Below, piece after piece: positions 588-39,669 of a stretch of 61,020 nt of DNA. The position numbers and the translations under genes are program-made. Below the pieces are notes generated by a model. That model ran no database searches. It was not told where the DNA came from and saw only the letters and a list, made by a program, of their open reading frames with translations. Origin of the DNA: Bacillota bacterium (lineage in GTDB: Bacteria > Bacillota_I > Bacilli_A > Erysipelotrichales > Erysipelotrichaceae); assembly GCA_018065105.1 (NCBI GenBank), contig JAGHTX010000145.1, forward strand, positions 1-61,020, given 5' to 3'. The first letter of the stretch is position 1. Every line of letters starts with the position of its first letter.

Positions 588-2670
588 AATTCTCTTTAAT
601 GATTTTTTCAGCGATACTCTTTGGTACTTCTGAATAGTGGTCGAATTTCATTGAGTAGTTTCCACGACCTTGAGTGAAACTACGTAAGTCTGTTACATAT
701 CCGAACATTTCTGAAAGTGGAATCATAGCACGAACGATAATTGCGTTTCCACGTTCTTCTTGATCAGTGATTTGTCCACGACGAGATGAAACGTCACCCA
801 TTACTGAACCTAAGTATTCAGATGGTGCAGTTACGTCTACAGACATGATTGGTTCAAGGATTGCTGGTTTACATTTTTTAGCAGCTTCACGTAATGCGAA
901 TGATGCAGCGATCTTATAAGCCATTTCACTTGAGTCAACATCGTGGTAAGATCCATCAAATAATGTAGCTTTGATATCGATTACTGGATATCCAGCAACA
1001 ATACCGTGATCTAAAGCGTCAACTAAACCTTCCATTGTAGGTTTGATATATTCACGAGGTACTGAACCTCCGACGATAGCGTCAACGAATTCAAATCCTT
1101 TACCTTCATTTGGTTCGAATTTAATCCATACGTGACCATATTGTCCACGACCACCTGATTGACGAACGTATTTACCTTCGCAATCAGCAGTAGCACGAAT
1201 TGTTTCACGGTAAGCAACTTGTGGTTGTCCTACGCTAGTTTCAACTTTGAATTCACGACGTAAACGGTCAACGATGATGTCTAAGTGTAATTCACCTACA
1301 CCAGCGATGATAGTTTGTCCTGTTTCTTCGTTAGTATATGTTTTGAAAGTTGGGTCTTCTTCAGCTAATTTTGATAATGCTAATCCCATTTTGTCTTGGT
1401 CAGCTTTAGTTTTTGGTTCTAGAGATAACTCGATAACTGGTTCTGGGAATTCCATTGATTCAAGAATGATAGGATTCTTTTCGTCACATAAAGTATCTCC
1501 AGTAGTAGTTACTTTTAAACCTACAGCTGCAGCGATATCTCCGGCATAAACCATATCGATTTCTTTACGTGAGTTAGCGTGCATTTGCACGATACGTCCT
1601 AAACGTTCTTTTTTGTTTTTAGTCGCATTTAATACGTAGCTTCCTCCAGTAGCGATACCTGAGTATACACGGAAGAATGATAATTTACCAACGAATGGGT
1701 CTGTTGCGATTTTGAATGCTAACGCTGAGAATGGAGCGTTGTCATCTGACTCACGAACATCTTCTTCACCATCTAATGTAATACCTTTAATAGCTGGTAC
1801 ATCTAATGGGCTTGGTAAGTAATCTACTACAGCGTCTAATACTAATTGAACACCTTTGTTTTTGTAAGCAGATCCACATAATACTGGGAAGAAGTCACCG
1901 TTACATACAGCGATACGTAATACACGTTTGATTTCGCTGATTTCTGGTTCTTCACCTTCTAATACCATCATCATGAAGTCTTCATCATAATCTGCAAGGT
2001 ATTCTAATAATTTTTGACGATATTCTTCAACTTGATCTACCATATCTTCTGGAACTGGTTTAGTTGTAATGTTTTTACCGTAGTCACCAGAGAAGTAGTA
2101 AGTTTTTCTTTCGATAATATCGATAATTGCTTCGAAGTTTTGTTCAGCTCCGATAGGTAATTGAATAGGACAAGATTTAGCTCCTAAACGATCAACGATT
2201 GTGTCACATGACATTAAGAAGTCTGCTCCAGTTGCATCCATTTTGTTACAGAATACAATACGAGGAACTCCATAAGTTGTAGCTTGACGCCAAACTGTTT
2301 CAGTTTGAGGTTCTACACCTGCTTTAGCATCAAGAACTGTAACGGCACCGTCTAATACACGTAATGAACGTTCAACTTCTACTGTGAAGTCAACGTGACC
2401 TGGTGTATCGATGATGTTTAAACGACATTCTTCACCAGTTCCGTCTAATTTTCTCCAGTGACAAGTTGTTGCAGCTGAAGTGATTGTGATACCACGTTCT
2501 TGTTCTTGTTCCATCCAGTCCATTGTTGAAGCACCATCGTGTGTTTCACCAATTTTGTGGTTAACCCCTGAATAGTAAAGAATACGTTCAGTTGTTGTTG
2601 TTTTTCCGGCATCGATGTGAGCCATGATACCGATGTTACGAGTGTTTGCTAAGCTATACGCTCTACCCAT
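580..2670 (-). CDS. fusA: Elongation factor G
   Basis: EF-G is the GTPase that moves tRNAs and mRNA through the ribosome after each peptide bond. The 696-residue protein has the usual length. Visible are the P-loop [15 protein letters not shown] near residue 17, the ERGITI effector motif, DTPGHVDFT (switch II) and NKMD, followed by the beta-barrel, the YRETI-containing domain IV and the C-terminal domain ending in the [11 protein letters not shown] region. It lies 18 bases after rpsG in the str operon. Codon use is strongly biased, as expected for an abundant protein. Confidence 0.99.
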
Positions 2671-38196: not shown

Positions 38197-38257
38197 AGAT
38201 TTCGGTTTAATTTGCATGTATCTTCTTGATAGCCAAATCTTTACAAGAAAAAAAGGT

Positions 38258-38280
38258 ATCCTTTCGGATACCTAAAGAGA
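38258..38280 (-). terminator. Terminator after the HPr-LDH gene
   Basis: On the minus strand, TAGGTATCC and GGATACC-type arms (about GGTATCC 38254-38260 and GGATACC 38266-38272 on the plus strand) form a short stem followed by T-rich sequence (TTTTTTTC). It lies about 20 bases after the stop codon. Confidence 0.65.
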
Positions 38281-38296
38281 TTAATTTTGAATAAAA

Positions 38297-39592
38297 CTAT
38301 TTAGCAGCTACTTCAGCCATTCCGTATGGGTTACCTTCGTTGAAGTTACGAGCATTTTCCATAGTTGTTGTAGCGATTGCTTGTAATGCTTCACGAGTGA
38401 AGAATGCTTGGTGAGAAGTTAATACTACTTGAGGGAACATTAATAAACGTCCTGTAATATCGTTAGCTAATGCTTCATCTGAACGGTCAGTGTAAACGTT
38501 AGCATCTTCACCTTCATAAACGTCTAATGCAACAGCGTGGAATTTTCCCATCTTCATTGCATCGATTAATGCTTCAGCATCTACTAATGGTCCACGAGAA
38601 GTGTTGATTAAGATTACGTTGTCTTTCATCATGCTGATAGCTTTAGCATCGATGATGTGGTAAGTACTTGGGAATAATGGAGCGTGTAATGAGATTAAAT
38701 CTGATTTAGCGAATAATTCTTCTTTTTCTACGAATGTTAATAATCCAGATTCTTCTAACGCTTTGTTAGGGAATGCATCCCATCCTAATACTGTCATTCC
38801 GTATCCTTTACAGATGTTAGCCATACATACACCGATACGTCCAGTACCTAAGATACCAGCAACTTTGTTGTGTAAGTCAACACCTAATAAACCAGATAAT
38901 GCGAAGTTGTTGTCTTTAACTTTGTTGTGAGCTTTGTGAAGACGACGGTTAGCTTCTTGACCAATAGCCATAGCGTGTTCAGCAACTGCATATGGTGAGT
39001 AAGCAGGTACACGTAATACTGTGATTCCACATTCTTTAGCTGCTTGTAAGTCAACGTTGTTGAATCCTGCGCAACGTAATAAGATTAACTTAACACCTAA
39101 TTCGTGTAATTTTTCTACTACAACACGTGGTGCTTCGTCATTTACGAAAATACATACTGCATCATAACCTTTAGCTAATTCAACAGTTTCAGGAGTTAAA
39201 CGTACTGAGAAATATTTAATATCTGAGTTGTAAGTTCCTTCACCTTTAACTTTAGTTAATTCTGAGAAGAAAGTACGGTCATAATCTTTAGTTCCGAAGA
39301 ATGCAATTTTTAATACTGGGATAGCTTTTTTAGCTTCTAATTCTGCTTTTAATAATTCTTCGATTTTAGCGATATCAGCGTCTTCGTTTTCACCTTCAAC
39401 TGCAACAGTTAAAGTGTCACCTTGTTTTGCAGCTAATGCTAAGATTTGTAACACGTTTGATCCATCAGCTGTACGATCATTGCAAGCAATTGTAACAGAT
39501 CCTTTGATATCAACGCATGTTTGAGCTAATAATGCAGCTGGACGAGCGTGGATTCCAAGAGGATTAGTTACTACATAAGTAAATTCTTTCAT
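38297..39592 (-). CDS. HPr domain fused to D-lactate dehydrogenase
   Basis: A 431-residue protein joining two known parts. Residues 1-86 are an HPr phosphocarrier domain: NPLGIHARPAALL holds His15 and Arg17, and Ser45 stands where the regulatory Ser46 of HPr is expected. From residue 94 (LKIAFFGTKDYDRTFF) a full-length D-lactate dehydrogenase follows: NAD motif GTGRIG 249-254, NAD-specific Asp272, and catalytic Arg333, Glu362 and His394, with exactly the spacing of classical D-LDH (29 and 32 residues). It reduces pyruvate to D-lactate and regenerates NAD+. The link to HPr suggests control by, or signalling to, the sugar PTS; that is inference. Codon use shows high expression. The promoter has a Rex-like site. 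Confidence 0.93.
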   Translation of the reverse strand: MKEFTYVVTNPLGIHARPAALLAQTCVDIKGSVTIACNDRTADGSNVLQILALAAKQGDTLTVAVEGENEDADIAKIEELLKAELEAKKAIPVLKIAFFGTKDYDRTFFSELTKVKGEGTYNSDIKYFSVRLTPETVELAKGYDAVCIFVNDEAPRVVVEKLHELGVKLILLRCAGFNNVDLQAAKECGITVLRVPAYSPYAVAEHAMAIGQEANRRLHKAHNKVKDNNFALSGLLGVDLHNKVAGILGTGRIGVCMANICKGYGMTVLGWDAFPNKALEESGLLTFVEKEELFAKSDLISLHAPLFPSTYHIIDAKAISMMKDNVILINTSRGPLVDAEALIDAMKMGKFHAVALDVYEGEDANVYTDRSDEALANDITGRLLMFPQVVLTSHQAFFTREALQAIATTTMENARNFNEGNPYGMAEVAAK

Positions 39593-39626
39593 TATATAAA
39601 TCTCCTTTATTAATAACTTTGAGAAT

Positions 39627-39651: not shown

Positions 39652-39669
39652 GTGTGATAAAATTCACAA
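39652..39669. promoter_or_regulatory. Rex-like operator before the HPr-LDH gene
   Basis: TTGTGAATTTTATCACAC on the minus strand matches the Rex box TTGTGAA-N4-TTCACAA with a perfect left half and 5 of 7 bases in the right half. It covers the -35 region, a placement that would block RNA polymerase. Rex senses the NADH/NAD+ ratio and commonly controls lactate dehydrogenase genes in Firmicutes. Confidence 0.65.

Follow-up and report, generated by a model that had tools for sequence, protein, structure and literature searches.

The window analysed here, a stretch of 61,020 nucleotides that forms positions 1 to 61,020 of contig JAGHTX010000145.1 (assembly GCA_018065105.1, an Erysipelotrichaceae bacterium), carries at 38297-39592 on its minus strand a gene that joins HPr, the phosphocarrier protein of the sugar phosphotransferase system (PTS), to a D-lactate dehydrogenase (D-LDH). 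The frame is unbroken from ATG to stop over 431 codons. In the 431-aa protein, Pfam recognises a PTS-HPr domain at residues 3-82 (PF00381, 79.5 bits against a cut-off of 23), followed at residues 102-422 by 2-Hacid_dh and 2-Hacid_dh_C, both well over cut-off; the NCBIfam HPr model TIGR01003 also matches (76 bits, cut-off 47.9). On the minus strand, residues 1-86 of the HPr domain lie at 39335-39592, a linker of residues ~87-93 at 39314-39334, and residues 94-421 of the LDH domain at 38330-39313. An earlier description of this DNA made from its letters alone, hereafter the original prediction, had read the same two parts in one frame, and the intact reading frame and the Pfam domains of both parts bear it out.

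To all appearances of its sequence, the enzyme half is a complete fermentative D-LDH of the LdhA type. The nearest solved structures are the LdhA-type D-LDHs of E. coli, Salmonella, Fusobacterium nucleatum and Pseudomonas aeruginosa (PDB 5z1z, 4cuj, 5z21 and 5z20), which match the whole domain at 43-45% identity; phmmer with residues 94-421 gave an E-value of 2.6e-93, and the top Foldseek matches were the D-LDHs of Fusobacterium, Salmonella and E. coli. The predicted catalytic residues Arg333, Glu362 and His394, spaced by 29 and 32 as the original prediction had noted, are invariant in all 104 distinct full-length fusions that we collected, and the same spacing separates Arg235, Glu264 and His296 of classical D-LDHs. 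Since 17 of 25 fusion genomes, that of the window included, encode no NAD-dependent L-LDH above cut-off (these being draft genomes), the fusion is probably the main lactate-forming enzyme where an L-LDH is missing.

For the HPr half, residues were counted column by column in 102 distinct fusions and compared with 32 free HPrs. The domain has the predicted secondary structure of an HPr, with a predicted local distance difference test score (pLDDT) mostly of 81-92, and His15-Ala16-Arg17-Pro18 is unchanged in all 102 fused sequences, with His15 and Arg17 at the places first proposed for them. Gly13, Ala23, Leu48, Leu53 and Gly67 are also unchanged throughout, and Gln24, Cys26 and Ala42 are each altered in just one sequence. 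Cys26, thus present in 101 of the 102 fused HPrs (window codon at about 39515-39517, minus strand), stands where Ala is found in 32 of 32 free HPrs; it might have a structural role in the buried interior or a redox role.

What the fused HPr has lost is Ser46. Residue 46 is Asn in 90, Asp in 11 and Glu in one of the 102 fusions, and Ser in none, whereas 21 of the 28 aligned free HPrs from fusion genomes have Ser46, and Lys45-Ser46 is the usual pair in these free HPrs. The original prediction had named Ser45 as the counterpart of Ser46; in the true register it is Asn46 that aligns with Ser46 of B. subtilis HPr, and Ser45 is the neighbouring residue, found in nine of the 102 sequences (position 45 is otherwise Asn, Arg, Asp, Lys and others). 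Helix B of the predicted model begins at residue 47, so that residue 46 is its N-cap; Asn or Asp could cap the helix as Ser does, so that the fold would be kept and the phosphorylatable hydroxyl alone lost. On the side of HPr that faces Enzyme I, residues 47 and 48 remain hydrophobic (Val47 in 100 of 102, Leu48 in all). With a profile match over the curated cut-off and a phosphorylatable His15 accompanied by Arg17, the domain belongs with the HPrs. It lacks the Ser46 of Gram-positive HPrs regulated by HPr kinase (HprK), and shows the reverse of the pattern of Crh, in which His15 is replaced and Ser46 kept; the Pfam scan found no Enzyme I or EIIA domain of the kind that marks multiphosphoryl transfer proteins.

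The HPr domain drifts faster than the LDH domain (mean column entropy 1.46 against 0.61 bits). The median ratio of nonsynonymous to synonymous substitution rates is 0.10 for the HPr part and 0.04 for the LDH part; both are under purifying selection, which is strong on the LDH domain. The linker is the most variable stretch of the protein, with a mean column entropy of 2.2 bits over residues 80-95 and a pLDDT that falls to 67 over residues 81-90.

A ribosome binding site, AAGGAGA, lies 5' of the fusion ATG at 39601-39607 (minus strand), and an intrinsic terminator, AGGTATCCGAAAGGATACCT then TTTTTTCTTG, lies downstream of the gene at 38254-38273 (minus strand), which suggests that the gene is transcribed as a single-gene unit. 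Its effective number of codons is 29.6, the second lowest among the 29 genes of the window and near that of the EF-G gene of the window (30.1), in line with the high-expression codon use that had been claimed for it; all 15 of its Arg codons are CGT. The bias is common to both halves (30.1 for HPr, 29.0 for LDH).

The 104 fusions, 67-88% identical, come from Erysipelotrichales (Floccifex, Sharpea, Faecalibacillus, Eggerthia) and from Lachnospiraceae. In a survey of 196 genomes of the window's own family, 24 carry the full fusion, counting that of the window, and in another (G092) the fusion is broken across contig ends. One of the carriers, G001, agrees with the Floccifex porci isolate at this locus in all coordinates, which suggests that the window belongs to that genus or near it. 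A phylum-wide sample added nine carriers from a second family of the same order, the named loci being from Sharpea, Faecalibacillus and Eggerthia. In a sample of 150 genomes around a Lachnospiraceae NK4A144 carrier, taken at the level of its family, six carry the fusion and more than 60 an unfused relative, nearly all of these 45-58% identical, while a sample of 391 drawn class-wide about this carrier had it as the sole genome with the fusion. Bin names such as 'Lachnospiraceae' may mislead for single metagenome contigs, but the carriers include isolates of both groups; isolate genomes with the fusion include Floccifex porci, Sharpea azabuensis and Eggerthia catenaformis. The search for the same two-domain order in relatives, put forward at the outset as the way to expose a chimera, therefore left the idea standing. 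The one point in favour of an assembly chimera, a frameshift or an annotation artefact is that the window is a single contig from a draft assembly, and we give such a reading practically no weight: it is already refuted by a junction that recurs unchanged in 104 distinct sequences, which come from isolates and metagenomes of independent studies, and by the codon bias that both halves share.

When the LDH parts are placed in a tree, every fused sequence falls on one side of a branch with 100% support in the Shimodaira-Hasegawa-like approximate likelihood-ratio test (SH-aLRT), and on that side Erysipelotrichales and Lachnospiraceae rows are intermixed. One fused clade in which the two groups are mixed makes a single fusion event, followed by horizontal transfer between lineages, the likely history.

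Two genomes of the Lachnospiraceae sample hold the two parts as separate genes. In G243 an 86-aa HPr gene lies 102 bp upstream of an LDH gene on the same strand, and its near relative G1100 has the same adjacent pair, about 100 bp apart. The G243 LDH is 63% identical to that of the window and falls outside the fused clade. The HPrs of these pairs have His15 and Arg17, with Gln46 in place of Ser46, and in a tree with 28 free HPrs they fall on the side of the fused ones (98% SH-aLRT, albeit on few columns). From these sequences the split pair looks like the unfused ancestral state or a close cousin of it. Genes that are adjacent in some genomes (G243 and G1100) and fused in others are classical evidence that the products, here HPr and LDH, work together. 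A second unfused LDH of high similarity (L174 in G991) has no HPr next to it, and neither does L173.

Enzyme I is above the family cut-off in 20 of 20 genomes checked individually (18 with the fusion, two with the split pair), and within the window's family every fusion carrier gave a match, with weak hits only in G176, a genome 68% complete. HprK is encoded in nearly all carriers, the genome of the window included; it was not detectable in the split-pair genome G243, which has Enzyme I, possibly because of a gap in the draft assembly, and it was found in the related G1100. With both proteins nearly universal, a correlation of the presence or absence of the fusion with Enzyme I or HprK within the family was uninformative. 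At least one additional free HPr is encoded in each of 26 of 26 fusion genomes checked, so that the fusion is more than just the general PTS carrier.

These genomes also hold HPr paralogues in which His15 is replaced by Glu (L114-L117, L126). His15 can thus be lost, and because other HPrs of the same genomes do lose it, its retention in the fusion is not automatic. The Glu15 paralogue keeps Ser46 (GLEARPVA...NAKSIMGMM; for example L115:1492-1746, minus strand, and L126 at about 1495-1749, plus strand); in Lachnospiraceae-type fusion genomes it lies directly downstream of WhiA-like and RapZ-like genes, named by eye, a Crh-like position, yet it has Glu rather than Gln at residue 15. The window's own genome encodes a third HPr (G000:C37:34214-34453, L003) with His15, with Lys46 (DIKKLLQFM) and with a very long branch; by its sequence it would be another HPr that escapes HprK.

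The surroundings of the gene vary among carriers: among 70 loci no widely recurring operon partner was found, the commonest neighbour occurring at seven. At seven of the 70 (L037, L040, L051, L052, L056, L060 and L064), a divergent lactate permease gene adjoins the fusion on its upstream side; these are Faecalibacillus-type and related genomes, and the permease of L064 was confirmed by Pfam (PF02652). In the window, a Rex-like palindrome, TTGTGAATTTTATCACAC, lies at 39652-39669 (minus strand), at -77 from the fusion start and with one mismatch to TTGTKA-N6-TMACAA. This candidate operator might add control by NADH in the window's genus, but such a site is not a feature of the family: sites with at most two mismatches occur in 11 of 101 fusion upstream regions, against about 7% in shuffles.

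Taken together, the observations make a link between PTS phosphorylation and lactate formation, with control through His15, a plausible and in our view the best reading. We propose that the protein is a D-LDH whose N-terminal HPr serves as a cis-acting sensor of PTS phosphorylation, with the unphosphorylated state most likely activating and the HprK input lost, and we put the probability of this at roughly 0.58. When PTS sugar is scarce and the ratio of phosphoenolpyruvate (PEP) to pyruvate is high, Enzyme I and PEP would place a phosphate on the fused His15; once PTS sugar flows, that phosphate would drain to EIIA proteins and leave the domain unphosphorylated. The phosphorylation state would then alter LDH activity, the unphosphorylated form most likely activating pyruvate reduction, so that lactate fermentation would be coupled to sugar uptake. 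We infer from these observations and from known PTS biology that Enzyme I phosphorylates the fusion, that this changes the kinetics of the LDH, and the direction of the change. The direction follows from two considerations: the HPr of Vibrio vulnificus, when it bears no phosphate, binds pyruvate kinase A and activates it (PMC5987630), and lactate should form when sugar flows. LdhA-type D-LDHs are allosteric tetramers, described as having no additional domain and no known specific effector (PMC4230899). Because the nearest relatives are cooperative tetramers of this kind, it is plausible that a domain open to phosphorylation, attached at the N-terminal side where substrate binds, could alter that cooperativity.

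The invariant His15 site and the absence of Ser46 together make the domain appear tuned to Enzyme I and PEP only. With Asn or Asp at residue 46, HprK would not phosphorylate it, and the fused HPr would report the PTS/PEP state without the HprK input that free HPrs receive; that Ser46 is lost in genomes that encode both HprK and free Ser46 HPrs argues for an escape from HprK. Whether Enzyme I, through the fused His15, acts as a post-translational on/off switch of D-lactate formation from which the HprK input has been removed is to us about an even question.

Several points weigh against the proposal. Unfused LdhA relatives work without HPr, so that the domain is not needed for catalysis. In the split-pair HPrs residue 18 is Cys and not Pro, which makes their active-site loop differ from that of a classical HPr. 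Both domains fold in the AlphaFold model, but its predicted template-modelling score is 0.65, and it does not fix how the domains are arranged, hence neither where HPr sits on the LDH nor any allosteric path.

The HPr might also act as a tether that brings the LDH to Enzyme I, where it would remove the released pyruvate on the spot with no allosteric switch. The PEP/pyruvate ratio would then stay in favour of PTS uptake, and NAD+ would be regenerated. Pyruvate is, by established biochemistry, both the product of Enzyme I and the substrate of LDH, the hydrophobic Val47 and Leu48 face Enzyme I, and codon use points to high expression. We nevertheless consider this unlikely, because the local release lies far below the bulk glycolytic pyruvate, contacts between HPr and Enzyme I are transient, and binding alone would not require a strictly invariant His15. 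It is somewhat more doubtful still that the fused HPr is an auxiliary phosphocarrier, insensitive to HprK, that passes phosphate from Enzyme I to EIIAs while the LDH is a passenger that gains from co-abundance. The intact His15-Ala16-Arg17-Pro18 and the missing Ser46 would suit such a role, but a carrier domain that is part of a large tetramer would shuttle phosphate poorly, dedicated free HPrs are at hand in all 26 fusion genomes checked, and neither the full conservation of the LDH catalytic residues nor the fixed clade that the fusion forms is what a passenger would lead one to expect.

That the HPr domain is a mere module for folding, solubility or oligomerisation, with no role in phosphorylation, seems to us improbable: the surface-exposed His15-Ala16-Arg17-Pro18 would have no reason to stay invariant, and other HPr paralogues do lose His15, even if HPr is in general small and very stable and the linker here is short and variable. 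The original prediction had offered two routes by which the PTS might tune lactate formation. The route through His15 is strengthened by the invariant site and the near-universal Enzyme I, but the other, in which HprK phosphorylates Ser45, is very improbable. The window protein does have Ser45 and its genome does encode HprK; the counts at positions 45 and 46 in the 102 fusions nevertheless rule out such control as a conserved mechanism, the actual target position being Asn, Asp or Glu in every one, and HprK is not detectable in the split-form genome G243.

The sensor reading has partial parallels among known systems. HPr is known to act on metabolic enzymes in trans. In Vibrio vulnificus a pyruvate-node enzyme is under His15-phosphorylation control (PMC5987630); there this was shown, with HPr acting in trans on pyruvate kinase, whereas here it is proposed, for an HPr covalently attached to LDH. 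Multiphosphoryl transfer proteins such as FruB/FPr and DhaM likewise have HPr within a larger polypeptide, as one of its domains, and a broad survey of the PTS describes HPr fusions with other PTS domains (PMC2405797); the partners there are PTS domains (Enzyme I, EIIA), whereas the partner here is a metabolic dehydrogenase. SerA, the ACT-domain D-3-phosphoglycerate dehydrogenase, is likewise a 2-hydroxyacid dehydrogenase with an added regulatory domain, but its domain senses serine, while that of the fusion is a phosphorylatable signalling protein. The LdhA-type D-LDHs share the catalytic Arg, Glu and His and their spacing but have no additional domain (PMC4230899). The Bacillus-type HPr agrees with the fused domain in profile (PF00381 and TIGR01003, 80 residues), in His15-Ala-Arg-Pro and in predicted secondary structure; the fused HPr differs in its link to an enzyme, in Asn or Asp for Ser46 and in its own Ala23, Gln24, Cys26 and Ala42, and in the tree it branches apart from the free HPrs (98% SH-aLRT). 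In the open-licence literature, a limited basis for such a negative, we found no published fusion of HPr to an LDH or other dehydrogenase; the 'HPr' of a review of 2-hydroxyacid dehydrogenases is hydroxypyruvate reductase and not the phosphocarrier. The architecture may already be entered in domain databases with no remark on it.

If the proposal is true, the fusion would be the first metabolic dehydrogenase known to be gated by HPr, and also the first case of a D-LDH that has its own dedicated regulatory domain. Known controls of LDH are allosteric metabolites, such as fructose 1,6-bisphosphate, and transcription. Fermentative bacteria need their lactate output matched to sugar uptake, and a phosphorelay protein mounted on LDH would be a direct and fast link from sugar import to the fermentation end product. 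The split and fused forms found in nature can readily be compared to learn how a signalling protein turns into a domain. Sharpea is a lactate former enriched in low-methane sheep, in which its D-LDH gene was reported to be 12-fold up (PMC5069950); that D-LDH, described there with no mention of HPr, is presumably the fused gene that we find at the Sharpea locus L053. With Sharpea, the human gut Faecalibacillus and many Lachnospiraceae among the carriers, such a switch may matter for the D-lactate that is produced in the gut and rumen.
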